Virus record (IMG/VR): IMGVR_UViG_3300009502_002943
Span: 1 to 51,210 of that record
DNA length: 51,210 bases
Origin: a virus
Strand: one strand, 5' to 3'
A program made the translations under genes and the position numbers. Below, one piece after another: positions 7,426 to 50,764 of the stretch. The first letter of the stretch is position 1; the number at the start of each line of letters is the position of its first letter. The notes beneath the pieces are model-generated. The model was not told the origin of the DNA, made no database searches, and was given only the letters and a program-made list of their open reading frames with translations.

Positions 7426-7461
7426 TCACATCAGACATTAGATGAGGATGGATGTGACCAT

Positions 7462-8025: not shown

Positions 8026-8087
8026 AATTATCTAGTTCCACGATTGTTAGGTTTGTCCGTGGATTTAGGTAGTCTTTTTTTGCAAAC

Positions 8088-8110: not shown

Positions 8111-8183
8111 TAGGAAAGACTTTTTAACAGGGATCTGTCTTTGATTACAAATAACAGCAAAACAATGGAGGGGGTGATTCCAA

Positions 8184-8348: not shown

Positions 8349-8357
8349 ACGAAACAG

Positions 8358-8400
8358 CGGGGGCGGGTTTGTGTACGAGCATCAGCCCGCCCTCGTTTTT
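8358..8400 (+). terminator. rho-independent terminator after the zinc-ribbon gene
   Basis: cgggggcggg (8358-8367) pairs with cccgccctcg (8386-8395) with one G-T pair, followed by TTTTT (8396-8400). The 18-base loop is longer than usual. It lies between the early small gene and the replication operon, a place where antitermination could act. Confidence 0.75.
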
Positions 8401-8465
8401 CGAGTTGATGCTGGTGGTTGCTCCCATAACGGGTCTAAAAGGAAAACTAAAACGAGGAGAAGTTC

Positions 8466-11436: not shown

Positions 11437-11456
11437 AATGGAAAGGAAATACACAG

Positions 11457-12047
11457 ATGATAGGAACAAGAACAGTAAACGCGAGTATATCTGAAGGCCA
11501 TGCTCGGCGATTAGCATTGGCGCTAAAAGACACGGATTTTAATGCGCCAGAGGCAGAGCATTTCTTGAAGTCGCACGGATTCGCCAAGAAGAAGACCGCA
11601 GAAGGTTCCTATTGGAAGATGAAGTCCAGGGACTGCTTTCTCATTCCGAGGGACTTGTTCTGTACGCCGTCGTGCCCCAAGGTGCAGCGCTGGGGTACTA
11701 CACTGAACGGGATGTTCTTGACGGCAAGGGTTATGGAGTCTTGCGCTGTCGGGAAAGAGTGTTCCTTGGCAGATATCTTGGAAAAGAATGTACCCCAAAA
11801 GTATTTTCTAACGAAAAAAGAAGCGGCGGCGATAATTGCGAAGACGCTGCTTTTGAAGGGGATTGAGTATCTCAAGTCAAGACTAAAGCCGGGATGGAAT
11901 ATCGCCGATTTCCGGAACGATGAAGGTCTGCGAGTCAGGAAGGAATTGATAAGCCCTTCGTTGAGGGCTGCCACGGAGATGTGTCCTATATATCTCGTGT
12001 ATGTGCCGGTAGGTGAAGAGGCTCCATTGGAAGGTTCTTATGTCTAA
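11457..12047 (+). CDS. phage protein of unknown function with 'VPQKYFLTKKEA' motif
   Basis: 196 residues from ATG 11457, which has GGAAAGGA ten bases upstream; a GTG at 11433 would add eight residues. The block 'LADILEKNVPQKYFLTKKEAAAIIAK' resembles a motif I recall from small phage proteins (usually 'VPxxYYLSxKACxGILRRA') found near phage methyltransferases. Six cysteines are present in the first two thirds. Function unknown; no methyltransferase motifs are seen. It is part of the replication operon. Confidence 0.65.
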   Translation: MIGTRTVNASISEGHARRLALALKDTDFNAPEAEHFLKSHGFAKKKTAEGSYWKMKSRDCFLIPRDLFCTPSCPKVQRWGTTLNGMFLTARVMESCAVGKECSLADILEKNVPQKYFLTKKEAAAIIAKTLLLKGIEYLKSRLKPGWNIADFRNDEGLRVRKELISPSLRAATEMCPIYLVYVPVGEEAPLEGSYV

Positions 12048-12255
12048 TACAAAGCAGAAGAAAGGCCCGGCAAAGGTCGTGCAGCATTTCATCGTTGAGG
12101 TCGCCGATGTTGGGTCTGCTCCGGAGTTGTACGCGAATCCCGGTAATCCGTACGCTGGTGCCTCCGATGATGATCGGGCCAGAGGTTTTGATTCGATCTT
12201 CGGTCTACTATTGGCCGAGTCGTTCCGGGAGAGTGGTCGCGAGAGAAAAGGTTGA
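12040..12255 (+). CDS. hypothetical protein, 71 aa
   Basis: ATG 12040 overlaps the preceding stop by eight bases, with GGAAGG at 12029-12034 as ribosome site. The product is hydrophilic, with a Lys-rich start and an Arg/Glu-rich end and no recognised domain. Its position at the end of the replication operon suggests an early phage gene. Confidence 0.55.
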   Translation: MSNTKQKKGPAKVVQHFIVEVADVGSAPELYANPGNPYAGASDDDRARGFDSIFGLLLAESFRESGRERKG

Positions 12256-12295
12256 TTGGCACGGCAGGATTAACAACAAAATAGGAGGTAGCAAG

Positions 12296-12460
12296 ATGGG
12301 TAAGAAGACTACATTTCTGAAAAGAGTTCGCGCTGTTCTTGGTTTTAAGGGCCCCAAAAGCGTCGGTGTCGGCATTTACGCTCGCGTGTCGACAGATGAG
12401 CAGGCACTCAACTTGGATGAGCAGCGGGATCATTTGGCTAGGTACATATCGAGAACTTGA
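12296..12460 (+). pseudogene. broken serine recombinase start, 54 aa
   Basis: AGGAGG at 12283-12288 precedes ATG 12296. After a basic leader the product reads 'VGIYARVSTDEQALNLDEQRDHLARYI', the N-terminal catalytic block of a serine recombinase, and stops at 12460. The downstream DNA is not open in any frame that continues the domain. It is either the remnant of an earlier integrase replaced by the next gene, or a short expressed decoy of the catalytic domain. Confidence 0.65.
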
Positions 12461-12535
12461 TTGTATCGAAAAGCGGCGAGTGCGCGGTATGATGTGCGCC
12501 GATGAACCGCCCATGCAACAAATTGGGGTAACGAA

Positions 12536-32900: not shown

Positions 32901-33779
32901 ATGCAGGATTTAACGGTTCAGTACAAAGATGAAGCGGTAAAGGACGCGAACAGGCCGATCGAGCTGTACGACCTTTATCTGGGGTCGCAGAATTCGTGCG
33001 ATTCCCAGACGTTTTATTTCTGCACGGACAACAAGCGTGTTTACTTTTGGAATCTGGATAGTGTCTTGCAGTATTACCAGCCGATCAAGGTTAATCGATC
33101 GTCCATCCCGGCCAGCAATCAACTTGAGATCGAAGCGGTGTCGGGTGAGTTTGACAATGTAGATCGGCTCTGGAGTAACTGGCTTAATACGATTGATCTT
33201 CGCGGGAAGCGGGTTGTGGTCAGGAAGGTCTTTCTTGATCTCTTAAGCGACCAGACGCACGCGAAGGTGATGTTTGATGGGATCATCAATGCAGTTTCAG
33301 AGTTGACGGAATTGAGCGCCAAGATCGAATGTAAATCGAAACTCAAATCTCTTTCCCTTGAGACCGGGCGGCTTCAACAACTTTACTGCAATTACATTTT
33401 TGGCGATGAGTTTTGTCAGCTGGATGTGTCAACGACCCGGTTGAATGGTCAGATGGTGGATGCAGGATCCACTACTGGGGCGGTCATCGATGCGGCAAGG
33501 GTGGAAGTGGACGATTGGTGGAACGACGGGATTATTCAGTTCATGTCCGGTGTCAATCAGGGGTTGAAGCGCAAGGTGGTTGATTTTATAAGCGTACAGC
33601 ACAAGTTGGTTCTGGATTACGCGTTACCGCAAGTACCGGCGACTGGGGATCTTTACACGATCGAGCGCGGGTGCGATAAGTCATTCGATGTCTGCCGGAA
33701 CCGGTTTAACAATCAGGCAAACTTTGGCGGGTTCAAGAACATCCCGCAGTTGATCAATCCGATGGTGGTTGAAGCATGA
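32901..33779 (+). CDS. tail tip/baseplate hub protein, gpL/DUF2163-like
   Basis: 292 residues after AGGGAGCGG. The C-terminal end 'YTIERGCDKSFDVCRNRFNNQANFGGFKNIP' is the conserved tail of gpL/DUF2163 proteins, whose cysteines in lambda gpL bind an iron-sulfur cluster. Here Cys residues at 'LYCNYIFGDEFC' and 'GCDKSFDVC' supply four candidates. It precedes the gpK-like domain, matching lambda order L-K-I-J. Confidence 0.82.
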   Translation: MQDLTVQYKDEAVKDANRPIELYDLYLGSQNSCDSQTFYFCTDNKRVYFWNLDSVLQYYQPIKVNRSSIPASNQLEIEAVSGEFDNVDRLWSNWLNTIDLRGKRVVVRKVFLDLLSDQTHAKVMFDGIINAVSELTELSAKIECKSKLKSLSLETGRLQQLYCNYIFGDEFCQLDVSTTRLNGQMVDAGSTTGAVIDAARVEVDDWWNDGIIQFMSGVNQGLKRKVVDFISVQHKLVLDYALPQVPATGDLYTIERGCDKSFDVCRNRFNNQANFGGFKNIPQLINPMVVEA

Positions 33780-36700
33780 AGAAGCTCGATACAGAAATCC
33801 TCAATAAATTGGTCGGGATCAAGTGGACCCAAGATGGCCGGGATCATGATGGGACGGACTGTGTTGGGCTTATGGAGCTGTATTTCAGGGCCAAGGGTGT
33901 GGAAATATCTGCGCCTAAGATTAGTGATTTTACAACGGAGAAACAGGACGAGATTATTAAAAGCATCACCGAAAGCAACATGATTATCGGTTTGGCTGAT
34001 CTTCAGGCTGAGGATGTTTTGGTTTTTAAGATCGATGAGGAATTGCACGTCGGCCTTTATTTGGGCTATGGCCGGATGCTTCATGCCAAGAAGGATGGGA
34101 AATCCCGCATTTCACGGCTTACGACTTCGTGGGATAAATACTTCCTTTTTGGGATCCGGGAGAGGGACGGAAAGATTTACATCCCGCCAGCCGGGCCCCC
34201 GGCGATTGTTGCTGTGGCTTTGGTGATCGCAGATTATGCGGCCGCGTCATTCATCGCCGGTGGCCTCATCGCGTTATCCCTGACCACGATTGGTTGCTTG
34301 ATCGGCACGGCCATGATCGGGTATTCGATCGGGCTGGCCATTCAGGCGCGTCAGACATCAAAGAGCGGAGGATCTTCTTCATCGCCACGGTATCAGTTCG
34401 GGGAATTGCAGACGACCTCAAGCAATCAGTATCCAGTGCCGGTCTTATACGGTCAGGCTCGGTTGGCCGGGAACATTGTTTTTCAGAACCCAGTCGGGGG
34501 CGGGGAGCAGATCGATATGCTCATTGTCCTTTGCGAGGGTGAGATCGACAGCATTACGGATGTGCGCCTTAATGGAGAGGTTATTGGAAACTTCCCGGGA
34601 TGTTCGTATCACGCTTTTACGGGCACATCAACGCAGAACGTGGAGACCATTACCGGCCTTGATCTGGATGGCGTGCAGTACCGGAATGTGGCCATGCTTC
34701 ATGTGCATTTGGAAACGTCCGATAAGTTAAAAGGCGGGCGGCCCAATATTTCATGTGTTTGTCGGGGTCGGAAGGTACAGACATGGAACGGGACGGTTTG
34801 GTCAGCGGGAAGAGCGTATTCCGATAACCCGGCCGCATGTATTCGTGATTATTTGCTTCTTAAGCCTCAGGTGGGCGGGTGCGGTTATTTGCTCGGTGAC
34901 ATTGATGATATGTCCTTTGGCGAGGTTTACGACTATTGCGGAGAGTTTATTTCGGACGGTCAGGGTGGACAGGAAGAGCGGTATGCGGTTTCTTATGTGA
35001 TTGATCAAAAACGCGCGGCGTCGGATAACCTCACTGAGATTTTGGTTGGTTTTGCGGGCGCGCTTATCAGAAGCGGCTCGAAACTCAAGTTACTGGTGGC
35101 CAAGACGCAGGGCGTGGTTGCCTCGTTTGACGAGGACGACATCATGGATTTGAGGGTTATTCAAAAGGGGCTGGATCAGAAAATCAACCGGTTCGGCATT
35201 GAATATTTTGACCCGACGCAGGATGACGCTCGGATTCTGGCGTGGGGGTCGGAGGATAAGGTTGATCAGGACGAACGCGGGCTGGTCGAACAGACTTTGA
35301 CGATTCCATCGGTTAATCGTAAGACGCAGGCATCGCGATTAAGTAATCAATATTTCTATGAGCTGAAACTTTGTCCGTTGTCAGTTGAATTCACCACTTC
35401 ATTGAATGCGATTGGTCAGGAGATCGGCGACGTTATCGAGGTCACTCATTCCTTGATGGGCTGGACAAATAAGCAGTTTGTCATCCAGCGCATTGAGGAG
35501 GATGAGCGCGATGTTTACAAGATGACGGCGCAGGAATATAACCCGACGATTTACAACGACCGTTACGGAGCCACGATTCAGAGTTTTGATTATGGTACGC
35601 CTCCCAATCCTTACGCGCCGGTGGGTGACGCTTCAAATATTGAAGTGTCGGAAAGCCTTTATTATCTGCACCGCGACGGTACAGTCGGTTCGGATATTCT
35701 TGTGTCCTTTGACGCGCCCATGGATGATTCCAAGATTTTCTTGAGCCATTATCAGATCGAACTCAAGAAAGGCGCGGAGGATTATAAGGTCATCGGAACA
35801 ACCACAGACACGTTCTTTACGGTCTTTGGTGTTGAGGATGAGCAAACCTATAAGGTCAAGGTGCGGACGGTTTCGATCAACGGAATTGTTTCTGATGGCA
35901 TTGAATCGTCTGACCTGACGGTTTTGGGGAAACTCATGCCGCCATCCAATGTTACCGGCTTCGATGTTATTCAAGAGGGTAATTTCTTAAGGTTCAGCTG
36001 GGACGCGGTCACGGATGCGGATCTTGCCCGCTATGTCATTCGGAAGGGTTCTGATTGGAATTCCGGTCAGGTGATCGCGGAGAGGACGGACACAACCGAG
36101 TTCATGTATCCGGTAGGAGAGGTGGGCAATGTCACCTACATGATTAAGGCCGTAGATACCTCCGGCAATGAAAGCCCCTCGCCCGCGTTAGACCAGATCG
36201 TTATTACACCGCCGCCAGAGATGAATTTCATTAATGATTTTGATCTTTGGAGCCAAGACCTCAAGTATCGTTTGAGCAATCTGGAATTGGTTTACACAAA
36301 TGACTATGCGCAGGGGTATGTGCGTCCGGCCTTGTGTCTTAAAACGGATTTATCATGGGAGGACAGGGAGGCGCAGGGGCTTACGTGGGAGGCGCAGGAG
36401 GCCGGTGGAGGGCTTGCATTGAATGGCTTGACCAAGACATCAGGCTCATTCGAGATGATCGATGTGATCGATCTTCTCACGATCTTTGAGTTCAAGGTGA
36501 TCATTGACGCGGATTTCAGGAATGTGGCGGGCGGGTCGCTTGAGGTGCAGGTTAGTTTTTCATCGGATGGTGTCTCGTATTCGCCCTTCACGGCTATTGA
36601 CGCTTTTACGACTTACACTGGCCGGTATATCAAGTTCAAGTTTGTCTTATCGACGGTCAACGCCAATCATCATGTTTATTTCTTCGGGTGCCGTCTTTAT

Positions 36701-36946
36701 ATCAATGCGCCGGTGACCCGGCAGGCGTGGTTTCGGGATATTACGATCCCGGTGCAGGGCAAGACTATTCTTTTTGGCACGGGTTTTAATTACCCGCCCC
36801 GGGTGACCGTGACCATCGTTAACGGCATTATCGGCATGCCGATCGTTTCCAATAAAACAACAATGCAGTGCGATATCAAGGTTTATGACCGTAACGGCGC
36901 GGCCATTGGCACAGCCGAGGTTGATATCGACGTGAAAGGGTATTGA
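33776..36946 (+). CDS. fused tail tip protein: NlpC/P60 (gpK) + gpI-like + gpJ host-specificity
   Basis: 1,056 residues. Residues 1-135 form an NlpC/P60-like peptidase: 'HDGTDCVGLMELY' with Cys29 and 'ELHVGLYLGYGRMLHA' with His91. Residues 140-190 are a Gly/Ala-rich hydrophobic segment as in gpI. From about 200, gpJ homology starts ('YPVPVLYGQARLAGNIVFQN', 'GGEQIDMLIVLCEGEIDSI'), with fibronectin-III-like modules near 640-815 and a beta-rich C-terminus that may bind the receptor. Lambda uses three separate genes for these parts. Confidence 0.85.
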   Translation: MKKLDTEILNKLVGIKWTQDGRDHDGTDCVGLMELYFRAKGVEISAPKISDFTTEKQDEIIKSITESNMIIGLADLQAEDVLVFKIDEELHVGLYLGYGRMLHAKKDGKSRISRLTTSWDKYFLFGIRERDGKIYIPPAGPPAIVAVALVIADYAAASFIAGGLIALSLTTIGCLIGTAMIGYSIGLAIQARQTSKSGGSSSSPRYQFGELQTTSSNQYPVPVLYGQARLAGNIVFQNPVGGGEQIDMLIVLCEGEIDSITDVRLNGEVIGNFPGCSYHAFTGTSTQNVETITGLDLDGVQYRNVAMLHVHLETSDKLKGGRPNISCVCRGRKVQTWNGTVWSAGRAYSDNPAACIRDYLLLKPQVGGCGYLLGDIDDMSFGEVYDYCGEFISDGQGGQEERYAVSYVIDQKRAASDNLTEILVGFAGALIRSGSKLKLLVAKTQGVVASFDEDDIMDLRVIQKGLDQKINRFGIEYFDPTQDDARILAWGSEDKVDQDERGLVEQTLTIPSVNRKTQASRLSNQYFYELKLCPLSVEFTTSLNAIGQEIGDVIEVTHSLMGWTNKQFVIQRIEEDERDVYKMTAQEYNPTIYNDRYGATIQSFDYGTPPNPYAPVGDASNIEVSESLYYLHRDGTVGSDILVSFDAPMDDSKIFLSHYQIELKKGAEDYKVIGTTTDTFFTVFGVEDEQTYKVKVRTVSINGIVSDGIESSDLTVLGKLMPPSNVTGFDVIQEGNFLRFSWDAVTDADLARYVIRKGSDWNSGQVIAERTDTTEFMYPVGEVGNVTYMIKAVDTSGNESPSPALDQIVITPPPEMNFINDFDLWSQDLKYRLSNLELVYTNDYAQGYVRPALCLKTDLSWEDREAQGLTWEAQEAGGGLALNGLTKTSGSFEMIDVIDLLTIFEFKVIIDADFRNVAGGSLEVQVSFSSDGVSYSPFTAIDAFTTYTGRYIKFKFVLSTVNANHHVYFFGCRLYINAPVTRQAWFRDITIPVQGKTILFGTGFNYPPRVTVTIVNGIIGMPIVSNKTTMQCDIKVYDRNGAAIGTAEVDIDVKGY

Positions 36947-36947: not shown

Positions 36948-37085
36948 ATGAAGGGATATTGCGTGACATGCAAGGTGCTTGTTGAAATTGAGGATTTGAA
37001 AGAAACAACGCTTAAGAACGGCACCAAGGCTTATACAGGCAAGTGCCCGGATTGCGGTTCTGAAATCATAAAAAAGAGGACTTGA
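36948..37085 (+). CDS. DUF5679-type zinc ribbon, 45 aa
   Basis: ATG 36948 starts three bases after the tail-tip stop. The product has 'YCVTCK' near 4-9, 'LKNGTKAYTG' in the middle and 'CPDCGSEI' near 34-41, which is the DUF5679 pattern. Function unknown; the two Cys pairs should bind one zinc. Its stop is followed at once by the next start. Confidence 0.7.
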   Translation: MKGYCVTCKVLVEIEDLKETTLKNGTKAYTGKCPDCGSEIIKKRT

Positions 37086-37087
37086 TC

Positions 37088-38128
37088 ATGGAGAGGCATA
37101 TTTTTGACCCGAATCAGCCGGGAGGATCGATGTCGCTGGAAAACATGAGAAACGTTTTGCGGGCGTTATTCCAGGGCGATCTGTTCGCACTTCGCCCGCG
37201 CGCGGCCATGGCGCTGGATGACTTTGAGTATTCGACGGACGCACTGGCGCAGGCGGTCTGGAGCGGAACGGGTGTGACGATTACGCATTCGACGGTTAAG
37301 CAGGAAGGTAACTATGCGCTTCAGGCAGTGATCGATGCGGCCGGTAACCGGCAGGTTTCAAAGTCGCAGGTTTTGAACCTCTCAGGATTTAAGCAGGCAA
37401 GAATCTGGGAGAGGTGTTCAGCCGTGTCCTCGGCATTCAAGTTCTTTGTTCGGGATGGATCCGGCAATGAGAGTTATTGGAATCTGACCTCACATGCCAC
37501 GGCTAATACATGGAAGCAGGATACGATCGCGCTGGCAACGCCGGATAGTAATAGCGGCACAGCGGCCAATCTGGCCAGCGTTGTGTCATGGGGGTTCAAG
37601 GCGCTGGGGGCGTCGGCAACGTATGTTTTTGATACGGTTTCAGCGATTTGCGGGATGAATGTGGCGGTGGCTTCCGCGTTGGTCGCAGGATATTACCAAA
37701 ATATTTATATCGGTTCCGCGCGGTTAACGTTTGCGGGAGGATCTTCGCCTTTGATTACGGCACCGGCCGCAAATCCAAGGATTGATCTCTTAACGGTCAA
37801 TTCATCCGGTGCTTTGGAATGGACGGTTGGTGTGGAGGCTTCAAGCCCTGCAGAGCCAGTGTTTCCATCAGGTAAGTTCCCGATTTGTCTTGTTTACTGC
37901 AGGCCCACGATGACGAAGGTTGTGGATTACGAAATCAAAGACGCCAATCCAAACGACGCCTACGTTTATAAAGACGTGAGGCCGTTATTTTTGTTAGGGA
38001 TGTCTTCGTTCGTGGCTTTGACGGATTGTCCGTCGAATTATACCGGGCAGGCCGGGAAGTCGGTTCGGGTCAAGTCTGATGAAACGGGTCTTGAGTTTGC
38101 GTTCCCGAACGCGACGTACGCGGAGTAA
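37088..38128 (+). CDS. tail fibre/receptor-binding candidate
   Basis: 346 residues from ATG 37088. The middle (50-210) looks like a jelly-roll carbohydrate-binding-like domain ('ALDDFEYSTDALAQAVWSG', 'NYALQAVIDAAGN'). The C-terminus 'FVALTDCPSNYTGQAGKSVRVKSDETGLEF' is a motif common at phage tail fibre ends. It directly follows the tip protein, so it is probably exposed on the virion. Confidence 0.65.
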   Translation: MERHIFDPNQPGGSMSLENMRNVLRALFQGDLFALRPRAAMALDDFEYSTDALAQAVWSGTGVTITHSTVKQEGNYALQAVIDAAGNRQVSKSQVLNLSGFKQARIWERCSAVSSAFKFFVRDGSGNESYWNLTSHATANTWKQDTIALATPDSNSGTAANLASVVSWGFKALGASATYVFDTVSAICGMNVAVASALVAGYYQNIYIGSARLTFAGGSSPLITAPAANPRIDLLTVNSSGALEWTVGVEASSPAEPVFPSGKFPICLVYCRPTMTKVVDYEIKDANPNDAYVYKDVRPLFLLGMSSFVALTDCPSNYTGQAGKSVRVKSDETGLEFAFPNATYAE

Positions 38129-38131: not shown

Positions 38132-38851
38132 ATGCCTCATCTTTTACCGCCAAAACAGTGCTCAACAAATACGCCGACATGGACGGATTCGGCTTTGACC
38201 GCCAACACGATCAAGGCGCGGAATGACCATATCGAGGAATTGCGGGTCAAGGTCAACCTTGAGTTTACAAGGCGGGGGCTGGCCACGACGTCGTTTACCG
38301 ATGTGACGTTGACGGCGGATGTTATCAAGATTCGTAATGATCATGTCGCTGAGTTGCGGACGGCCTTGCAGAACATCAAATCCGGGCGCGGCGAGGCCGG
38401 TTATTGCGCTCAGGATGTATCAGGGTGCATGGATTTCACGGACGCGACGCTTACGGCCAACACTATCAAGGCACGGAATGATCATATTTCGGAATTGAGA
38501 TCAAAACTTCAGTCTTTGATGACGGGGTGTATTTGCGAGGCCGAGCAGTGTCAGTATTGCGCTGATTGCGGGTATTACTACCAGACCTGTTCGCACGCAG
38601 GAGTTGCCTGTGATGACCATAAATATAGCGAGTGTCAGTACAGCCTGATCGATCATCGGATTTGTGCCAGTTACAACTTGCCGGGCGGCACAACGCATCC
38701 TTATAAAACTGCTTCCGGTGAGCCGTTAACGACAACGCCGTGGGATGGGTATTTGCCTTGGGCCCCGCAATGTAATTACACACCGCCGGGGAGTAACTGG
38801 CAATCAGGTCATTCGGACTGGAATTGTAAATGCAATCCGTTTACTTGGTGA
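38132..38851 (+). CDS. triple-repeat protein with cysteine-rich C-terminus
   Basis: 239 residues. Three near-identical segments of the form 'TD..LTANTIKARNDHI.ELR' start near 18, 56 and 103. The C-terminal 107 residues hold 12 cysteines (133, 135, 140, 143, 146, 153, 160, 168, 178, 214, 232, 234) and many Tyr, Gly, Asn and Trp. 'HIxELR'-type repeats are known to me from other secreted bacterial proteins, without function. Lying between the tail fibre and three radical SAM genes, it is the best candidate substrate of those enzymes. A zinc or disulfide-rich adhesin is the alternative. Confidence 0.6.
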   Translation: MPHLLPPKQCSTNTPTWTDSALTANTIKARNDHIEELRVKVNLEFTRRGLATTSFTDVTLTADVIKIRNDHVAELRTALQNIKSGRGEAGYCAQDVSGCMDFTDATLTANTIKARNDHISELRSKLQSLMTGCICEAEQCQYCADCGYYYQTCSHAGVACDDHKYSECQYSLIDHRICASYNLPGGTTHPYKTASGEPLTTTPWDGYLPWAPQCNYTPPGSNWQSGHSDWNCKCNPFTW

Positions 38852-38857
38852 GGATCT

Positions 38858-39238
38858 ATGTTTGAGGATCAGAGTTTATCAGGTCAAAAGACGAGGATGA
38901 TTGCCAAGCGCACCACGGACAATCCGGTGACTGAGTTGATCTATTGGGTGCGGATGAATTTGGACAACACCACAATCAGTGCATTTTCAAAAGGTCATTT
39001 TCAGAATGCTGATGACTTTAGTAATGCTCTCAAGCGAACGCTTCAGGATCTTGGTCTTTTGGATGGAAAGGGGTTGGTGTCGAATTTTAGTTTCTTTATA
39101 TCCGGCGAGAAAAAGCGTGAGATTTATCTGACTGGTGTTGCGGCATTGACCGAAGATCAGAAATTCATGATTGAGTATCGTTTTGGAATGAATTTGGTTG
39201 AGGTTGAAGAAGGGCTTTATCGATTGGATTGGCAATGA
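38858..39238 (+). CDS. unknown 126-aa protein upstream of the radical SAM genes
   Basis: ATG 38858 follows GAGGATC. The product is a mixed alpha/beta protein with 'NADDFSNALKRTLQDLGLL' and 'REIYLTGVAALTEDQKFMIEYRFGMNLVEVEEGLYRLDW'. No family is recognised. Its size and its place immediately before (stop overlapping the start of) the first radical SAM gene suit a small partner such as a peptide-recognition protein, like HxsD or PqqD in other systems. I cannot see their signatures, so this is inference. Confidence 0.55.
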   Translation: MFEDQSLSGQKTRMIAKRTTDNPVTELIYWVRMNLDNTTISAFSKGHFQNADDFSNALKRTLQDLGLLDGKGLVSNFSFFISGEKKREIYLTGVAALTEDQKFMIEYRFGMNLVEVEEGLYRLDWQ

Positions 39239-40431
39239 GCGTTTTTACCTTGGAAGACAGCAAGGCGGTCGGCGACCTGCCGTCATTATGCCGGAAGATT
39301 ATCAAGGGGCATAAAGATGGCGGGAAGTTTAATGTCAGCGCGATTACGTCGGATAAGGCGGATTACACGACGATTTATTTTCTGATGACGCAGGACTGCA
39401 ATTTGAAGTGTCCATATTGTTATCAGCCTCGGGAGTTTCGGCAAAAGGACAGCGGGATCACCCGGGAGATCATTGATTGCGCCATGGGGTTTGTGGTGAA
39501 GACGTTTGATGAGTCGAAGGTCAAGTTCAGTATCTTTGGCGGTGAGCCGTTTGTTAATTTTGAGATGGTGAGGTATTTGGTCGATACCTACCGGATGTTT
39601 CCGTATGTGGTGACCACGAACGGGGTGGTCTTGGCGGAAAGTTCCGAGGCGCGGGAATGGGTGATGTCACGCAAGGGAACGCTTCGGTTGAGTGTCAGCA
39701 TCACCGCTCTCAAACAGAAGTTCGGCAAAGGATATTTGGAAGCGGCCAAGCCGGTCTTGGATGTGGTGAGGCATAACGGCGGGGATGTTCACTTTGTTAT
39801 CGATGACCCAGATGAACCGGGCATCTTTGAGGATATCAAATACCTTTTCGAGTATCCAGTGCCGGTGGTGCGGATTTCGACCGCGCGGCATTGGGATCGG
39901 ATCCGGGATAAGAACGAGGCGTACAAGGCATTATTGAAGCGCGTGGCGGATTACGTTTATTTCACTGGTCAGCCCAAGTTTGGCCGGTGTCAGTGGGATT
40001 CAGTTTTCAAGCACAACATCTATCGACGGTTGAAGGGAATGACGCTCAGGCAGGTGCCGCCAACCTTTTGCGGGTGCGGGTATCTGTATTTGGCGATTAA
40101 TAACCGGGGTGAGATTTATCCGTGTGACTTCTTTGCCAATTTCCCGGAGTTTAAGATCGGCGACATCTTTAACGGCTTTAACGAGACGGCGTTGTTCTTT
40201 CAGAAGATGGGCGAATGGCTGGACGGTCTTTACGAGGATTGTCGGGGTTGTGAGGTTTGCGCGGGAGGGGATATTCGGCTTTGCCCGCGGGCCATGTGTT
40301 TAGCGGAGAACTATATCAAGACAGGCAATCCTTTAAAACCGGCCGTCAATCACTGCTGGGCGAACCGGGTTGAGTATTTCGTGTTTGATTACATTGCGCG
40401 CCGCGCGATTGAGCTGGGGATTGATAAATGA
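39235..40431 (+). CDS. radical SAM/SPASM enzyme 1
   Basis: 398 residues from ATG 39235, overlapping the upstream stop. 'DCNLKCPYCY' gives the CxxxCxxC cluster motif (Cys55, 59, 62); 'FSIFGGEPFVN' is the SAM-binding GGEP motif. The SPASM part (about 280-375) has 'CGCGYLYLAINNRGEIYPCDFF' and 'DCRGCEVCAGG', 'CPRAMC' and a final 'HCW', enough for two auxiliary clusters. SPASM enzymes such as PqqE, AlbA and anSME modify peptides or proteins. Overlaps the second enzyme by four bases. Confidence 0.9.
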   Translation: MSVFTLEDSKAVGDLPSLCRKIIKGHKDGGKFNVSAITSDKADYTTIYFLMTQDCNLKCPYCYQPREFRQKDSGITREIIDCAMGFVVKTFDESKVKFSIFGGEPFVNFEMVRYLVDTYRMFPYVVTTNGVVLAESSEAREWVMSRKGTLRLSVSITALKQKFGKGYLEAAKPVLDVVRHNGGDVHFVIDDPDEPGIFEDIKYLFEYPVPVVRISTARHWDRIRDKNEAYKALLKRVADYVYFTGQPKFGRCQWDSVFKHNIYRRLKGMTLRQVPPTFCGCGYLYLAINNRGEIYPCDFFANFPEFKIGDIFNGFNETALFFQKMGEWLDGLYEDCRGCEVCAGGDIRLCPRAMCLAENYIKTGNPLKPAVNHCWANRVEYFVFDYIARRAIELGIDK

Positions 40432-41507
40432 AAACGCCGGTCTACAAATCGATTTACCTTTACTTGACGCACGCATGCAACGCGGGGTGCAGTTTTTGTT
40501 ATAGGCGCGGGTTGTTTGAGCGCAATAAGCGCGAGACACTGGGCCCGGCGTTCATGAGCGAGGAGATGGCGTTTCGGATCTTTGATTTCGCATTCTCCAA
40601 GCTGGAGCTGGACGATAAGTTTTCGATTTTCTTTTGGGGTGGTGAACCGCTTTTGAATATAAAAGTGATTCGTGCGGTCGTGGAGAAGTATCCGCAGTTT
40701 CTGTTTCATACGAACACCAGCGGCAAGCCGGTGACGCAGGAGATGTACGAATGGTTCATGGCACATCGGAATATGGGGATTACATGGTCGCTGGGCAATG
40801 CTTACGAGAAATACGGTGGGCTGGCTCAAAAGGTCGCGGCAGAGCCATGGGCCTTCCGGCTGGTTAAGGATAACCCGGCCAATACCGTGAATTTCATGGT
40901 TACATGGTATGACCGGTTCATTGAGGACTTTGATTATCTGGTTGAGAACGTGACACGCAATATCACGATCGATCTGGCCACCCGGGTTGAGCATAAGGAA
41001 GAGGATCTGGAGAGGTTTGCTGATGAGTATTTCCGGCTTCTTGAGAAATACCGCCACGACGAGGATTTGTACCGGTCCATGAACCCGGCATTGCACAGCA
41101 ATTTGTATTTCAGGGAGTTTGGGCTTAAATCGCAGGTGCGTCCGTTTCACTATTGTCGGTCGGGTTTGGAGAGGCTCTTTATCGATACCGCAGGCGGGAT
41201 CTGGCAATGCGACAACATGTACATTTGCCAGCATAACAAGCTGGGCAACATCGAAGAGGGTATTGATTATTCGCGTTTGGATTTGGCTAGGGCGATCGAT
41301 GCGGATCGGGAGAGGTATCTGGGCCAGCATTGTGAGGGATGTGAACTTTACGGCCAGTGCCCGCGCAACAAGTGTCTTGGGTTGAATCTGGAGTGGATGG
41401 GGGACATGTTCAAGCCCGAGCCGTCGTTTTGCAAGATGTGCCGGGTGCTTTTCAAAATAACCAAGCGGTATATCGAGATCGAGAAAGGAAGATTATGCAA
41501 GGTGTAG
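40428..41507 (+). CDS. radical SAM/SPASM enzyme 2
   Basis: 359 residues. 'ACNAGCSFCY' holds the cluster cysteines (17, 21, 24) and 'IFFWGGEPLLN' the GGEP motif. The C-terminal SPASM region has 'HYCRSGLERLFIDTAGGIWQCDNM', 'HCEGCELYGQCPRNKC' and 'FCKMCRVL'. The start overlaps enzyme 1 by four bases, and enzyme 3 starts 13 bases before its stop. The substrate is unknown; sequence divergence from enzymes 1 and 3 suggests a different step or residue. Confidence 0.9.
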   Translation: MKTPVYKSIYLYLTHACNAGCSFCYRRGLFERNKRETLGPAFMSEEMAFRIFDFAFSKLELDDKFSIFFWGGEPLLNIKVIRAVVEKYPQFLFHTNTSGKPVTQEMYEWFMAHRNMGITWSLGNAYEKYGGLAQKVAAEPWAFRLVKDNPANTVNFMVTWYDRFIEDFDYLVENVTRNITIDLATRVEHKEEDLERFADEYFRLLEKYRHDEDLYRSMNPALHSNLYFREFGLKSQVRPFHYCRSGLERLFIDTAGGIWQCDNMYICQHNKLGNIEEGIDYSRLDLARAIDADRERYLGQHCEGCELYGQCPRNKCLGLNLEWMGDMFKPEPSFCKMCRVLFKITKRYIEIEKGRLCKV

Positions 41508-42652
41508 TCGGCGGGAAGAATAAAAACGAGATCAGGAGCATTGATCTGTTCATCACCGAACGTTGCAACATGGATTGCGAATATTGCTTTCATCCGAAAG
41601 GCGACAGCGTATTGTCGCTTGAGGAGGGGAAAAAGATTCTGGATCGCATGAAGGAAATCAGTCCTGACGGCCTTCAGATCACGTTTTTTGGGGGTGAGCC
41701 GTTGTTGTTTCCGCAGACGGTCTTGGATCTGGCGCGGTATGCCCGGGAGCTTTGGCCGGATAAAGACGGCAGGCACATGGCGGTCTTTAGCGTGTCCACC
41801 AACGGCACGTTCTTCGATGAGGAGGTGTTCCGGCAGTTCAAGGATCTTCAGTTCGCGGTGCAGGTCAGCTGTGACGGTGATGAGGTCACGACCATGGAGC
41901 ATCGAAAGGGCAACTGGGCGAAAGTTATTGAGAACATGAAGAAGATGCTGGCCGTGTTCCCGGATCTGGGTGTGCGGATGACCTATACGCCGAAAACCGT
42001 GGGGAGGCTTGCGATCAACGTCCAGTTTCTTCATCAGGAGGTCGGGGTGCAGAAGATCATGCACCATGCGGTCATGGAGGCAGATTGGACGGACGAGGCC
42101 GTTGAGAAATATTCCTACCAGCTTAATCAGCTATATCACTATCGCCGGTATTGCATACGGCAGGGTATTCCTCTGCAGATCGCGTTTATTGATAAACCGC
42201 TCAAGGTTGTTAATGACGAGGTGCCGCCGGAGATGAACTATTGCGAGGCGGGCAAGTCGTATTTGGCGATCTTGCCGGGAGGGGATGTGTATCCGTGCCA
42301 CCGCGCGGCCAGTGCCCGGGTGTTTAAGTTGGGAAATGTATTTGAAGAGAGGCCGTTCATCCGGGGAGTGTTTTTGAGCATCAACAAGGAATACGCCGGT
42401 TGCTGGAAGAACTGCCCGGCGGCCGCCAGTTGTCATAGTTGCGTGATCACGCATCACAAGGTCAATGGCGATTTGAGTCAGCCGATCGGCAAATACTGCA
42501 AGTTGTGCAGGCTTGAGCATGACGAGGCCATGCGGTTCTTGCCGGTTGAGTTGAGCGATCGCCGGGAGAGGATGCTTTACAAGATTGGTCAGGTCTTGGT
42601 CGATGTGGCCAAGCAAAACGAAGAGATATTAACAGCACTTGGAAAGGAGTAA
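41495..42652 (+). CDS. radical SAM/SPASM enzyme 3
   Basis: 385 residues from ATG 41495 (GAAAGGAAG upstream); a longer frame from 41357 lies inside enzyme 2 and is rejected. 'ERCNMDCEYCF' (Cys24, 28, 31), 'QITFFGGEPLLF', and a SPASM region with 'YCEAGKSYLAILPGGDVYPCHRA', 'CWKNCPAAASCHSC' and 'YCKLC'. Of the three it looks closest to peptide-maturing/anSME-type enzymes. A helical tail follows ('MLYKIGQVLVDVAKQNEEILTAL'). Confidence 0.9.
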   Translation: MQGVVGGKNKNEIRSIDLFITERCNMDCEYCFHPKGDSVLSLEEGKKILDRMKEISPDGLQITFFGGEPLLFPQTVLDLARYARELWPDKDGRHMAVFSVSTNGTFFDEEVFRQFKDLQFAVQVSCDGDEVTTMEHRKGNWAKVIENMKKMLAVFPDLGVRMTYTPKTVGRLAINVQFLHQEVGVQKIMHHAVMEADWTDEAVEKYSYQLNQLYHYRRYCIRQGIPLQIAFIDKPLKVVNDEVPPEMNYCEAGKSYLAILPGGDVYPCHRAASARVFKLGNVFEERPFIRGVFLSINKEYAGCWKNCPAAASCHSCVITHHKVNGDLSQPIGKYCKLCRLEHDEAMRFLPVELSDRRERMLYKIGQVLVDVAKQNEEILTALGKE

Positions 42653-42656
42653 AGCC

Positions 42657-42950
42657 ATGACTGGAGATTCTATTGGTTTTGAAGAAATTAGTGTTGATGT
42701 GGGGGTGGCAAGTTTAAACGCGGCGATTTATGACCCCGCTGTTGGGGATGCGGCCGCGAAGGCGTTTATTACAGCGGAGGGTGGTGCGATGCGCTACCGT
42801 CTTGATGGGCAGGATCCAACGGATACGACGGGGCATCCATTATTGGATTCGGACTTCTTGGAGTTAAAGAGTATTTACTTGATACGGAAGTTTCGAGCGA
42901 TCAAGCAGAGTACGACTGCCGGAAAACTTACCGTGACTTACGAAAGTTAG
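42657..42950 (+). CDS. small beta-rich protein after the radical SAM trio, 97 aa
   Basis: GGAAAGGAG precedes ATG 42657 by six bases. The product is acidic and beta-rich ('AAKAFITAEGGAMRYRLDGQDPTDTTGHPLLDSDFLELKS', 'FRAIKQSTTAGKLTVTYE'), resembling small phage structural proteins that decorate capsid or tail. It has no cysteine, so it is a poor substrate for cysteine chemistry. Confidence 0.6.
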   Translation: MTGDSIGFEEISVDVGVASLNAAIYDPAVGDAAAKAFITAEGGAMRYRLDGQDPTDTTGHPLLDSDFLELKSIYLIRKFRAIKQSTTAGKLTVTYES

Positions 42951-42959
42951 GAGGATGAC

Positions 42960-43520
42960 ATGCATATTCAGCAATCAAGAACGTACAAAATAGAAAACAT
43001 CACCCCGCCGACTCAGAATTTCAACGCCGGTCTTTTGAAAACCGGCCAGACGTATTCGCGGTTTTGGGGCGATGACGCAATGTATCAGAAAGGAATTGGG
43101 CCTTCCGGTTCGAGGTACAACGATAACGGCGATGGAACCGTTATGGACAATCTCACCGGTCTTATGTGGGTTAAGGATCCGTCAGAGCTTTACGGGCCTT
43201 GGGGGTCGCCGGGTATGCCGAGTCAGATGAGTTGGTATGACGCGATCAATAATTGCGAGAACCTTGACTATGTCGGGTATTCGGATTGGCGGCTTCCAAA
43301 TATTCGGGAATTGGAATCACTGATCAACTTTGGCACGTACGGGAATGTCATCGACACGATGTATTTCCCGAATGCTCAGTCAAGTGGTTATTGGTCATCG
43401 ACGCTTAATGAATCCTACGATTATTACGTTTGGATGATTTATTTTTATGACGGCTACCGAACAACGGATAGCAGGGATTATGGCTATGAATTTGTCCGTC
43501 CGGTTCGTGGCGGCGTGTAA
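42960..43520 (+). CDS. DUF1566 (C-type-lectin-like) protein, possible retroelement target
   Basis: 186 residues. 'YNDNGDGTVMDNLTGLMWVKDP', 'WYDAINNCENLDYVGYSDWRLPNIRELESLINF' and 'SGYWSSTLNES' are DUF1566 hallmarks. The final third (about 145-183) is full of Tyr, Asp, Asn, Ser and Thr, then 'FVRPVRGG'. This is the usual composition of a variable region diversified by a diversity-generating retroelement. A tail-tip or fibre-end ligand-binding role fits. No reverse transcriptase is present in this window. Confidence 0.8.
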   Translation: MHIQQSRTYKIENITPPTQNFNAGLLKTGQTYSRFWGDDAMYQKGIGPSGSRYNDNGDGTVMDNLTGLMWVKDPSELYGPWGSPGMPSQMSWYDAINNCENLDYVGYSDWRLPNIRELESLINFGTYGNVIDTMYFPNAQSSGYWSSTLNESYDYYVWMIYFYDGYRTTDSRDYGYEFVRPVRGGV

Positions 43521-45835: not shown

Positions 45836-46045
45836 AAAAATATTCCCATCGACGTTTTCCGTAACCTTTCTATTTTCAGAACCTTCCGGACTTTCTAAAT
45901 TTTTTTTTGCCCCATCAATTGGCACGGTTGTTTTTTATATGTTATATTTTCTATGTATTTATAAAGCTGGTGGGTAACTATAAAGAAACTTTTGGAGAAT
46001 ATTAAAATTGCCGCGCGAGTCGTGGCTCATACAAGGGATAAAAAT
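45836..46045 (+). promoter_or_regulatory. AT-rich junction with promoter of the giant gene
   Basis: The 210-base gap is AT-rich, unlike the phage genes. TTGGCA (45919-45924) and TTATAT (45942-45947) with a 17-base spacer form a plausible promoter, starting near 45954. A T run (45899-45908) precedes it without a clear hairpin. The right attachment site of element B should fall in this gap, but no repeat shared with the 14.3 kb junction could be seen by eye. Confidence 0.6.
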
Positions 46046-49000
46046 ATGAATGCTTTAAAAAGAACAGTGCCATTTCGAATATTATCAAGCTGGATCATTG
46101 TCAGCTTTCTGGCTTCAGCAGTGATCCCGCCTCGCGCGTATGCCCAAGCATTGGATTTGCCCGCGCCCGGTACCATGGTTATGACAACCCCAGCGTTTAT
46201 GCCAGTCATGATGAAGGGGATTCAGATTCATCCCGACAATCCGCTTCTTTTTGATTTCATTCTTGATACCGGTAAGTCAGGCCTCAAGATTGATGGCGAA
46301 GAATTCAAGGCCGAATCTCAAAAACTAATCAAATATTTTCTCGCATCGCTCACGATCAAGGAAGACGATCTCTGGGTCAACTTGTCACCGTATGAGAAAG
46401 ACCGGATGATCACCGAGGAATTGGGGAAGACGGAACTTGGCCGCGATATGTTGGCGCAGGACTACATTCTCAAGCAGTTGACTGCGTCCATGATTTATCC
46501 TGAGAAGGATCTTGGCAAGGCGTTTTGGGACAGGGTTTATACCAAGGCCCAACAGCAGTTCGGCACGACAGATATCCCAGTGGATACATTTAATAAGGTC
46601 TGGATCGTGGCCGATAAGGCCAAGGTTTTGGAGCGTAACAATGCGGCCTATGTTGTGGGATCGCATTTGAAGGTCATGTTGGAAGAGGATTATGTTGCTC
46701 TGGGGAAACAGACCGCCGTGACAGAGAAAAACGAAGTCGCTGATAATAAAGCCCACGCCGTGGCTTCGCAGGTCATTCGTGAGGTCATTATTCCTGAAAT
46801 TGAAAAAGAGGTCAATCAAGGTCAGAACTTTGCGCCGTTGCGCCAGATGTTTTATTCCATGATCTTGGCCTCGTGGTACAAGATTGCGCTTAAAGATGCT
46901 CTTCTCAATCAGGTGTACAGTAATAGAGGAAAGACCGCTGGTGTGTTGTCTGATGATCCGGCCGTCAAAGAGAAGATTTATCAGCAATATTTGAAAGCCT
47001 ACAAGAAGGGTGTCTTCAACTATATTAAGGAAGACATGGATGCTGTCAGTAAACAGCCTATGCCGCGTAAATATTTCTCGGGTGGAGAAAAGATGCGTCT
47101 TCGCCTTGGAGAAAATTTAGCGATCTCTCATGAGCAATCCCGTGACGATGCACCGTTAAAAGATGGTGATTTGGCGATCGCCACGGTTAATGTAGCTAAG
47201 TCAGGCGTTGGCACAAGCATAAGTGCGGCTATGGTCACGAGGGATAAACTTGCGGGAGCTGTCACTAATGATATAACGGCTTTTGGATTGGACTTGAAGC
47301 AGGATATTGATTTTATTCAGGTATGGTTCGCTAATGATCCTCAGGCAACGAACATGATTTCAATTAAAGCATGGGATCGCGGCTTTCCTGAATCTGTAGA
47401 AGCGTTAATGGCATTGATTCAACGGAGTGAAGATCGGACAGGGAAGAAAGCCAAGACGGTTTGGCTGAACTTTTCATCTTCCGGGCAAAGCAAAGCTGTT
47501 TCTGCCAAGAGTCAGAATACAGTTCGCTTGCCTTATACCATTTCTGATGCGGCGATGTCAGGTGAGGTTTATAACGAAGAGTGGATTAAGAAAGTTCCTA
47601 CTTGGAAAGAATTAGAGGAACAACTGGTGCTAATGTCCGGTAATGTAAATGCTCCAGCCGCAGGCATTGCGGATGATAGGGCTCGGTATAGACAAGAAGA
47701 GGAAATGGTGTCCTATTTTTTGAATGTTATGCCCAGAAGCCCGTTGCAAGGTCTTGAGCCTGTCCTTAGCGGGAAGATCGAAAAACTTTTGAGAGCATCC
47801 ATGGCGTTTCTTCTTGTTAAGGGTATGTATCATAGTCGAATAATGACAGAGACCTTATTGTCTCAGCAACCGGTAAATTCCTCTAAGGTAGCTGCCCTGG
47901 TGGAGTTTGCTAATCAAGAAAGGGAGTCTCTTGAATCAGATCCCAAATTGATTGAACTTGTTCACCAACTGCCGATTGTGAAAGAAAGTGATCTGAAGCC
48001 TAATGATGTCGTTTTGTATGATTTTGAAGGCAAGTTAAGGAGCGCGCTTTTTACTGATCAAGGTCTTAATGAAAATGCAAGGAGAGGGAGTCCTCGTCTT
48101 GTGGCAAGAGCTGACCAGGCTATGGTGTCGAGGGATCAGCTTGCCGAAACTATAAAGAAGGATGTTGCGGATCTTGGTTTGGCCTTAAAGTACGACATCG
48201 ATTTTATTCAGGTATGGTTCGCAAATGATCCACAGGCAACGAACATGATCTCTATTAAAGCTTGGGATCGTGGTTTTCCTGATTCAATAGATGCGGTAGT
48301 GGATATGATTCAACAGCGTGAGGCTCAAATTGGGAAGAAGGCAAATACGGTTTGGCTTAATTTTTCAACTTCCGGACAAAGCAAGGCAGCCGCCGCTAAG
48401 AGCCAGAATGCAGTTCGTTTGCCGTATGCTATTTCTGACGCGGCAATGAATGGGAATGAATTAACGGTGACTAACGGAAATCCTTCATCGTTGAAGGATC
48501 TTTATAGATCAAGCTTGGATGCGATGTTCCAGGAAGCCGTTGTTCGTTTTGTCCGGGCTGGAGCAACGCATGAATATCGCTGGAAATATCAGGCAGAGTT
48601 CGCAGGTGAGTTAGTGGCTAATCCTCAGACATTTGAGCTGGGACGTGCCATGTTGGAGGATGCGTATAAACAAGGCGTTGCTCTTGAAGGAAGATTTGAC
48701 GCAGATGGATGGCCGGTTGATCAGCGATTTGATGTGGCGCATGACGTGATCGTGGAAATGGCAAAACATCCGGATCTTAGGCAGCAAGCGCTTCAACTTG
48801 TTTTTGATCCGCGAACATATGGCATGAAGGTTGATGCTACAAATGAACAAGGATTTAGAGAAACCCGTGAGGCAATGGGACCAGAAAGACAGTTGGCGGC
48901 ACCTGAAATACAACCGGAAGCCCCTATTCAGCCAGAGAAATATTCAGTAAAAAGGGTGCTCGGAAAACTGTTTGGGACGCCGTCAGAAGTGGCTCTTCCC

Positions 49001-50764
49001 GTTGTACGTCCAACATCTCAACTGCCCAAGGTGCGTGTTAAGGTGTCCATCCATGATCCAAAGATTTTGGGGAACATGCGGACATTGGTGCTGGCTGTCT
49101 TGAAAGAGGTTGGCGACAGCGACATGGAGCTTGCCGAGAGACTTATAAAATTTCGTATGCAGTTGGGAGAGTGGGAGCGTGAGTCGACAGAAGGTAAATT
49201 TTATGAATATAAAGCACAGGAGGTTGAGGATTTAATTAAGTACCCCGCACTTTTACCGCTGCTTATTGAACTTGCTAACTCTTCACGCGATGAAGAAGAC
49301 AGAGGAAACGCCCTGATGTACGTTGTAGATGGGTATCTCTCGGCGGGAAAAGTTCAAGAGGCTTTCGATTTGTTCTTGAAGGTTGGCCGTGTTTCCTATT
49401 ATAGATTCGCAAGCGCCATTGCTCATCTGGCTTCCCTTTCAAAGAATAGAGCGACCGTTCTGGATCATTTTGAAAGAATCATTTCTCGTGACAGGCTTTC
49501 AGATTGGCAGATTGATGTCGCTGACGAATTGTTTAGACTTGGTGCCAAGAAAGAGGCGGAGTACCTTTACAATAAAGTATGGCAAAGTTTATCTGGTAGC
49601 GGCGAAAACAGATTGGGTCTTCTCGTTGCTCTTGCTAAGGGGGCGAGAACAACCGGTGTGAAGATAGGCAAGAAGAGCGCAGGTGAGTTGCTTAATGACG
49701 CTAATGAAAACGTGACCGCAACTTTGAACGCCTGGGATGTCAGGAGAGACAGAAGCAACAACATTTTATTGCGAGCTGCTCAGCGTACGGCGTTCGAATT
49801 GACACTTGCAGGGAGATATGAGGAGGCCGAGACGCTAGCGCAACTGGTTGACAAGAAGCATCGCATAGAGTATTGGGGTGGTCAGGCGGGTTCAATGCGA
49901 CCTGAAGAAAGAGATCAAATGTATCGGGAGATGGCCATCGCTTCTGCCGAGAGAGGAGATATTCCAAGAATTGAGCAAAGTTTGAATGCTATGCGGGAAT
50001 ATAAGCCCGGTGCTCTTTTGGAGATCGCCAAGATCTTTGCTCGTAAAGGAGAATATGAGAACTCAATTATGGCTTCGGTTTTTGGTGCTGATTCCGTTGA
50101 TGTCCGCGGAGGGATAACAACCGATAAGGGTTCGAGAGGCGCGATGTCGACGTTGGTTTCTTTTATTGATCAGGGAGAGCCGGTTTTTGAAGTTGCTAAG
50201 ATTATGTTAGCGCAGGGCATGGATAGCCAGAGGGTTGGGAAGGTGCTTGTAGCGGCGACCAGAGTTGGTCTGGGTGACCTTCAGTTGGAGCGGCTTGTTC
50301 AAGTTATTCGAGGGCACAGAGAACTTACGCCGTTTCTTCTGGAGATAATGCAAAATGCCTTGAGCAAGAACGGCTCAATCATTGCGCATTCTCAACATAG
50401 AGTCATTCTCGGGGCTTTGAGAGAGTTTTTCCCAGGGGAGGCTTCTATTGCGCAAGAAGAAGTTAATACCATGTTTGAGCAGGCCGGACTTGGAAAAGAA
50501 AAGGCTGGTGAGCAGAAGAAGGATGGTGATGATGCAATGGCCCCTGGTGGTATTGACCTGAACGCCAAGAACATGGGGCTTGATGTGACTAAGGATGGCA
50601 AAGGCATCGAAATGAAATTTGATCCGGCCATGGTTGCAGAGTTTCAGAGTGGCAATTTCGCTGGTGTCGAAGGAATCATTCTTCGCATCGTTCCCATCGC
50701 AAGCCCATTGCCGATCTTAGGATTGGAAACAAGCCCGGTAGAAGGTGCATTAGCAAAGGGATAA
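46046..50764 (+). CDS. giant exported protein with internal duplication
   Basis: 1,572 residues from ATG 46046; TTG 45992 would add 18. A signal peptide ('LSSWIIVSFLASAVIPPRAYA') is cleaved near residue 33. A helical region with 'GIQIHPDNPLLFDFILDTG' follows, a motif I associate with Omnitrophota giant proteins. Two copies of a ~110-residue module ('DIDFIQVWFANDPQATNMIS', 'NTVWLNFS.SGQSKA..AKSQN.VRLPY.ISDAAM') lie at about 393-508 and 692-802. Helical repeat regions (TPR-like) occupy 1000-1480. The role is unknown; it is probably periplasmic or surface located. Not phage-like. Confidence 0.75.
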   Translation: MNALKRTVPFRILSSWIIVSFLASAVIPPRAYAQALDLPAPGTMVMTTPAFMPVMMKGIQIHPDNPLLFDFILDTGKSGLKIDGEEFKAESQKLIKYFLASLTIKEDDLWVNLSPYEKDRMITEELGKTELGRDMLAQDYILKQLTASMIYPEKDLGKAFWDRVYTKAQQQFGTTDIPVDTFNKVWIVADKAKVLERNNAAYVVGSHLKVMLEEDYVALGKQTAVTEKNEVADNKAHAVASQVIREVIIPEIEKEVNQGQNFAPLRQMFYSMILASWYKIALKDALLNQVYSNRGKTAGVLSDDPAVKEKIYQQYLKAYKKGVFNYIKEDMDAVSKQPMPRKYFSGGEKMRLRLGENLAISHEQSRDDAPLKDGDLAIATVNVAKSGVGTSISAAMVTRDKLAGAVTNDITAFGLDLKQDIDFIQVWFANDPQATNMISIKAWDRGFPESVEALMALIQRSEDRTGKKAKTVWLNFSSSGQSKAVSAKSQNTVRLPYTISDAAMSGEVYNEEWIKKVPTWKELEEQLVLMSGNVNAPAAGIADDRARYRQEEEMVSYFLNVMPRSPLQGLEPVLSGKIEKLLRASMAFLLVKGMYHSRIMTETLLSQQPVNSSKVAALVEFANQERESLESDPKLIELVHQLPIVKESDLKPNDVVLYDFEGKLRSALFTDQGLNENARRGSPRLVARADQAMVSRDQLAETIKKDVADLGLALKYDIDFIQVWFANDPQATNMISIKAWDRGFPDSIDAVVDMIQQREAQIGKKANTVWLNFSTSGQSKAAAAKSQNAVRLPYAISDAAMNGNELTVTNGNPSSLKDLYRSSLDAMFQEAVVRFVRAGATHEYRWKYQAEFAGELVANPQTFELGRAMLEDAYKQGVALEGRFDADGWPVDQRFDVAHDVIVEMAKHPDLRQQALQLVFDPRTYGMKVDATNEQGFRETREAMGPERQLAAPEIQPEAPIQPEKYSVKRVLGKLFGTPSEVALPVVRPTSQLPKVRVKVSIHDPKILGNMRTLVLAVLKEVGDSDMELAERLIKFRMQLGEWERESTEGKFYEYKAQEVEDLIKYPALLPLLIELANSSRDEEDRGNALMYVVDGYLSAGKVQEAFDLFLKVGRVSYYRFASAIAHLASLSKNRATVLDHFERIISRDRLSDWQIDVADELFRLGAKKEAEYLYNKVWQSLSGSGENRLGLLVALAKGARTTGVKIGKKSAGELLNDANENVTATLNAWDVRRDRSNNILLRAAQRTAFELTLAGRYEEAETLAQLVDKKHRIEYWGGQAGSMRPEERDQMYREMAIASAERGDIPRIEQSLNAMREYKPGALLEIAKIFARKGEYENSIMASVFGADSVDVRGGITTDKGSRGAMSTLVSFIDQGEPVFEVAKIMLAQGMDSQRVGKVLVAATRVGLGDLQLERLVQVIRGHRELTPFLLEIMQNALSKNGSIIAHSQHRVILGALREFFPGEASIAQEEVNTMFEQAGLGKEKAGEQKKDGDDAMAPGGIDLNAKNMGLDVTKDGKGIEMKFDPAMVAEFQSGNFAGVEGIILRIVPIASPLPILGLETSPVEGALAKG
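47223..48450 (+). repeat. two diverged copies of a ~330-base coding module
   Basis: Copy 1 spans about 47223-47566 and copy 2 about 48118-48450, 560 bases apart. Stretches such as ttattcaggtatggttcg and aacgaacatgat are identical in both. Differences are mainly third-position, so the duplication is functional and not very recent. Confidence 0.8.

Follow-up and report, generated by a model that had tools for sequence, protein, structure and literature searches.

A radical SAM/SPASM cassette in a siphovirus tail operon as a probable maturation system for a cysteine-rich tail-associated protein

Radical S-adenosylmethionine (SAM)/SPASM peptide chemistry is a feature of natural-product and cofactor pathways, and CteB is a thioether-forming SCIFF maturase. 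Earlier counts in phages are 11-12 radical SAM proteins for Campylobacter phages (PMC2853527) and, for a marine T4-like genome, 12 (PMC5332604); in the available portions of these and a further report (PMC7029224) such genes are treated as metabolic or are assigned no function. Maturation of phage tail proteins by radical SAM enzymes was not found described in the literature searched, whose coverage is thin for subscription journals and excludes bioRxiv preprints. The subject of this analysis is a gene cassette at 38132-42652 of IMG/VR record IMGVR_UViG_3300009502_002943, a virus with a siphovirus late region; its 51.2-kb sequence, the whole stretch of DNA analysed, is termed the window. A preliminary description had noticed three overlapping radical SAM/SPASM genes at 39235-42652 and proposed a phage-encoded post-translational modification system, a proposal that co-conservation and cassette swapping support. 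With a probability of about 0.7, the cassette is regarded as a phage-encoded maturation cassette in the tail operon, resembling those of ribosomally synthesized and post-translationally modified peptides (RiPPs), that modifies the cysteine-rich C-terminus of a tail-associated protein. That no three-enzyme module had been described agrees with the literature; for pelagimyophages, however, radical SAM cassettes were noted in host-recognition regions, with no function given in the part available (PMC7029224).

The three enzyme genes are present and intact on the plus strand: rSAM1 (39235..40431), rSAM2 (40428..41507) and rSAM3 (41495..42652), overlapping head to tail by 4 bases (rSAM1/rSAM2) and 13 bases (rSAM2/rSAM3). 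The listed GTG start of rSAM3 at 41357 lies too far 5', and the ATG at 41495, which has a GAAAGGAAG ribosome site and matches the homologues, is most likely the true start. Each enzyme contains a CX3CX2C motif that is invariant across homologues (CNLKCPYC, CNAGCSFC, CNMDCEYC), a GGEP motif, and at least seven SPASM-type C-terminal cysteines that are mostly retained in homologues. The Pfam Radical_SAM model was matched over its cut-off by rSAM1 (E 1.1e-7) and rSAM3 (E 4.5e-18), and by rSAM2 at E 1.6e-5 and 25.5 bits, under the 29.5-bit cut-off. Pfam SPASM was matched over its cut-off by rSAM3, weakly by rSAM1 and not by rSAM2, and TIGR04085 SPASM was matched over its cut-off by rSAM1. In the search of radical SAM subfamily models that the preliminary description had recommended, peptide maturases of the PapB, SCIFF, nif11 and CXXX-repeat types scored highest for all three enzymes, below equivalog cut-offs. 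The best model for each was NF047865, the PapB-type ranthipeptide maturase (103, 92 and 172 bits; the equivalog needs 340), so that on sequence rSAM1-3 are predicted to be relatives of PapB-type maturases outside the equivalog family. The best match in the PDB was CteB (5wgg) for rSAM1 and for rSAM3, the most conserved of the trio (E 3e-26), and 5wgg together with 8vpo for rSAM2; alignments to CteB start only after about its residue 91. A single scan of a genome collection for host homologues yielded nothing beyond a partial match (29%) to an Archaeoglobus metagenome-assembled genome.

The first gene of the cassette (38132-38851, plus strand) encodes a protein of 239 residues with 15 cysteines. 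Its N-terminal domain (residues 1-132; 38132..38527) consists of three helical repeats of the form TD-x-T-x-xR-x-x-H-x-x-ELR, and its Cys/Trp/Tyr-rich C-terminal region (residues 133-239; 38528..38848), the proposed modification site, contains 12 cysteines, almost all invariant across homologues. In the AlphaFold model the repeats were fairly confident helices and the cysteine-rich region had a pLDDT below 50 despite its strong conservation, as would be expected of a region whose folding depends on modification, though this is not proof. No match to the CXXX-repeat target models TIGR04114 and TIGR04117 was obtained, and among solved structures the one match was a chance match to an antibody. 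Homologues were absent from GenBank phages and from plasmids, the plasmid query being the homologue in contig L051 only. The next gene (38858..39238, plus strand) overlaps rSAM1 by 4 bases and encodes a fast-evolving accessory protein of 126 residues (32-67% identity to homologues). It was considered as a RiPP recognition element (RRE); its model was alpha/beta (pLDDT 71) and gave no clear match to a known fold, the hits being tied at Z of at most 5.1.

IMG/VR was scanned with each cassette gene, and homologues of the 38132 product were found on 19 contigs. Besides the window, 12 contigs carried all three enzymes in the fixed order 38132, (126-residue gene), rSAM1, rSAM2, rSAM3, eleven of them with siphovirus tails and one with a baseplate-type tail; the seven incomplete contigs were consistent with this order over their extent. 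The trio stood 3' of the tail-fibre gene in every sufficiently long related contig, and the proposal thereby withstood the check named in the preliminary description, by which a lack of the trio beside tail genes in related phages would have refuted it. The five-gene block suggested for other phages thus recurs as to 38132 and rSAM1-3; the 126-residue gene is missing from L051 and L052, and its product is dispensable. In the group L027-L033 the J protein was only about 25-30% identical to that of the window, whereas identities were 55-63% for 38132, 65-67% for rSAM1, 63-66% for rSAM2 and 70-74% for rSAM3. On L052, a section of a 92-kb contig, 38132, rSAM1, rSAM2 and rSAM3 (48%, 35%, 38% and 50% identity) are preceded by tail genes that include gp53, gpV, gp25 and gpJ-type baseplate genes. 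Movement or conservation of the cassette is therefore not tied to one type of tail. Compared with two relatives, dN/dS was about 0.06 for 38132 and 0.04-0.07 for the enzymes, dS being close to saturation in some genes. The cassette genes are under purifying selection, and this, together with the 19 contigs, excludes chance.

The best evidence on the site of action came from cassette exchange. L062-L068 and L080 share the backbone of L033 and carry a different module in the cassette slot. Between L062 and L033, J was 75% identical over 1208 residues, the other upstream genes 64-90%, and the two products encoded 3' of the slot, the small protein and the Lcl_C protein, 66-67%. The alternative module encodes a protein of 187-200 residues with a C-terminal cysteine tail of CCECECTCTCTCT type (CCECECTCTCT...) and a radical SAM (SPASM) enzyme of 414-462 residues, 27-29% identical to rSAM3. 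Among the alternative cassettes, L063 was scanned and has at 7832-9181 a B12-binding-type radical SAM enzyme beside the CTCTCT-tailed protein, which suggests that the Cys/Thr repeat undergoes methylation or some other B12-dependent reaction. By hhalign, the alternative substrate aligns to the 38132 product over residues 1-132 only (probability 94). Since the N-terminal part is kept while the cysteine part and the enzyme set both change, the enzymes probably act on the cysteine-rich part. Were the N-terminal domain to dock modified cysteine tails, its homologues should have such tails beside radical SAM genes. A scan with this domain only returned 18 loci, all 18 with cysteine-tailed proteins, 17 of them on previously known contigs. 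The remaining locus, L116, was new (41% identity); its protein has three repeats and about 350 residues of CDxDxC-type repeats (CDSDPCACD...), and a radical SAM gene lies immediately 3'.

In the favoured reading, the 38132 product would be the substrate, its N-terminal repeat domain would function in recognition and/or docking, and the C-terminal region of about 105 residues would be modified. The three CteB/PapB-related enzymes would work on that region, probably differing in the bond that they make or the site at which they act, with sulfur-to-carbon thioether and/or C-C cross-links as the most likely bonds. The hardened product would then probably be incorporated in the tail tip or fibre region. 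Co-conservation and cassette swapping, as read from the genes, argue strongly for the pairing of enzymes and substrate; the bond chemistry is proposed with moderate confidence, and virion incorporation with a role in adsorption with moderate to weak confidence. Tail incorporation is suggested because gene calls and Pfam and family-model searches found no peptidase/protease or exporter/transporter gene in the cassette, and because the cassette lies among late tail genes. Several points weigh against this reading. None of the three enzymes reaches the NCBIfam equivalog cut-off, and the family tells no bond type; an RRE was not recognizable in the enzymes or the cassette. The cysteine region of the 38132 product is non-repetitive, and metal binding or disulfides are conceivable. 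Virion location is predicted from gene position, and the modification from the genes.

Were the cassette instead a moron that, during lysogeny, makes a secreted RiPP such as a bacteriocin, a signal or an exclusion factor, its content would be familiar, as ranthipeptide and sactipeptide loci usually consist of a radical SAM/SPASM gene and a cysteine-rich partner, and the serine recombinase gives the phage a temperate look. This is unlikely: the lack of peptidase and transporter tells against secretion, the genes overlap on one strand inside the late tail operon, partners of 190-480 residues have a conserved folded N-terminal domain, and fibre or baseplate genes always adjoin the cassette, across morphotypes.

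That the enzymes modify another tail protein, with 38132 merely neighbouring, was judged quite unlikely. The candidates would be the 37082 fibre and the 42960 Lcl_C protein, which both flank the cassette in the window, and Lcl_C proteins can act as surface adhesins. Homologues of 37082, however, were undetected in the distant group (L027-L033) that retains the cassette, and the sole constant flanking companion of the enzymes, baseplate-type tail included, is 38132. The preliminary description had named the 42960 product beside that of 38132 for analysis by mass spectrometry; it is an unlikely substrate, because its gene stays in place when one enzyme set replaces another.

Least probable of all, and very doubtful, is a metal-binding or disulfide C-terminus beside enzymes with an unrelated role, for example in nucleotide or glycan chemistry, that aids host recognition: spacings like CICEAEQCQYCADC could be metal ligands, and other radical SAM genes are known in phage host-recognition regions and Campylobacter phages, but the cysteine tail and enzyme set are replaced jointly in one slot, the CTCTCT, CNCNFCPC and GCSGC tails are closer to curated radical SAM target repeats than to metal domains, and the closest enzyme models are peptide maturases.

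Pairs similar to the proposed substrate and enzymes were also seen in a wider class of loci, collected solely by weak similarity to rSAM3. These were often tail regions in which the neighbouring protein had a non-cysteine N-terminus and a hyper-cysteine tail, as in L069 (CQTACQTSCQ), L070 (CNCNYACT), L072 and L082 (CNCNFCPCNCDF), L074 and L077; GenBank record MT835573 likewise has a hyper-cysteine-tailed neighbour of a radical SAM gene. On L077, a 230-kb viral contig, about 10 kb (3594-13774) hold three hyper-cysteine proteins, with up to 81 cysteines in 364 residues, and two radical SAM genes. With near-duplicates removed, open reading frames (ORFs) of unrelated phage loci were cysteine-dense in 13 of 145 cases at up to 2.5 kb from a radical SAM gene, compared with 3 of 257 at greater distance (Fisher p 2e-4), a count that is supportive only, its density threshold having been set after the sequences were inspected. 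No homologues of the L072 and L077 cysteine proteins were found in GenBank phages by a search that the low-complexity filter limits, and no cysteine-dense partner was seen in the examined stretches of the Campylobacter phage radical SAM clusters. The human-gut records MT835702 and MT835472 were set aside, as they look like host chromosomal loci in which the surroundings of the radical SAM gene show nothing of a phage.

In cultured SPN3US-type jumbo phages, two cysteine-rich ORFs and a short third directly follow fibre/virion genes and precede a pair of radical SAM genes. The two cysteine-rich genes of SPN3US (L097:5097-6126) were missed in GenBank, where SPN3US_0166 is an overlapping ORF in another frame. 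The cysteine frame is conserved (ORF1, dN 0.24, dS 2.6), whereas the annotated SPN3US_0166 frame is not (dN 0.58, dS 0.29). Virion proteomics based on the SPN3US annotation may therefore have overlooked these proteins, which are not discussed in the available main texts of the SPN3US papers. The cysteine proteins of SPN3US and MT835573 match the CXXX radical-SAM-target model TIGR04114 near its cut-off. In E. coli phage vB_EcoM_EC001 the cysteine ORFs are annotated (ACEC001_1660, 1655 and 1650), the radical SAM genes being ACEC001_1630 and 1620, and the system is directly testable because this phage has a cassette built along the same general lines. A tentative generalization, put at somewhat under even odds, is that many tailed phages, whether siphoviruses, myoviruses or jumbo phages, incorporate in their tails hyper-cysteine appendages modified by radical SAM enzymes, in which an N-terminal dock bears an exchangeable cysteine-rich tail and each comes with its matching enzymes as a swappable cassette.

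The late region upstream of the cassette encodes terminase, portal, major head protein, tail tube, tape measure, a BR0599-type protein and the J-like central tail protein (33776..36946; NlpC/P60, Phage-tail_3 and fn3 by Pfam; phrog_31, E 1e-79). A putative tail fibre gene (37082..38128) stands directly 5' of the cassette, identified by a weak match to the tail protein phrog_11660 (E 5.9e-7) and its conserved position. Downstream, a small tail-region protein (42657..42950), with homologues beside both cassette types, bounds the slot and is followed by the Lcl_C/DUF1566 protein (42960..43520; PF07603, E 1.7e-31), all four genes being on the plus strand. Gene calls and Pfam agree with the earlier placement of the trio between fibre and DUF1566 genes. 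The Lcl_C protein varies from 45 to 89% identity among phages whose enzymes are near-identical, as expected of a receptor-binding part; a window-wide repeat search for a diversity-generating retroelement showed no template/variable repeat pair there. As for the earlier word prophage, the record is a virus record, and its large serine recombinase (12536-14509) points to a temperate phage. Upstream of the recombinase, 1401-5593 holds a restriction/defence-like set with a DNA methyltransferase and a Z1-domain protein. At 45992-50764 lies a gene for a 1590-residue protein with an N-terminal secretion-like segment and a 300-base repeat in two copies, partially matched (37%) on L019 and L026. In style it presumably resembles Omnitrophota proteins, and it may be a host marker or a large phage-carried gene.

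Here radical SAM/SPASM chemistry has a dedicated place in tail gene clusters, near host-recognition genes, and is both conserved and exchangeable. If the favoured reading is true, it would represent a new class of covalent modification in virus assembly, give a function to the unannotated families phrog_6085 and phrog_26958, account for the puzzling radical SAM genes of cultured jumbo phages and provide new enzymes for peptide cross-linking.

Among known systems, the cassette is most like the PapB-type ranthipeptide/SCIFF maturases (CteB, 5wgg), which share the radical SAM/SPASM core, CX3CX2C, the auxiliary-cluster cysteines and a cysteine-rich partner gene adjoining the enzyme gene, and which are the best sequence matches for all three enzymes. 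It differs in having no recognizable N-terminal RRE, three enzymes per substrate, a phage tail operon as its setting, a 239-residue substrate with a folded repeat domain, and enzyme scores far under equivalog cut-offs. CXXX-repeat target systems (TIGR04114/TIGR04115/TIGR04117) likewise pair long cysteine-repeat proteins with radical SAM maturases, and TIGR04115 matches the enzymes; the window substrate, in contrast, is non-repetitive and unmatched, and the names of these models do not mention phage tails. The pelagimyophage host-recognition cassettes, likened by description, have radical SAM genes by tail-fibre genes and cassette-wise gain and loss, with neither substrate nor function proposed in the part of the report available (PMC7029224). 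Phrog_6085 and phrog_26958, as in SPN3US, share a helical N-terminus, a hyper-cysteine tail and fibre/baseplate and radical SAM neighbours with the 38132 product, and differ in their N-terminal domains, in having at least two short cysteine proteins and in an unrelated backbone.

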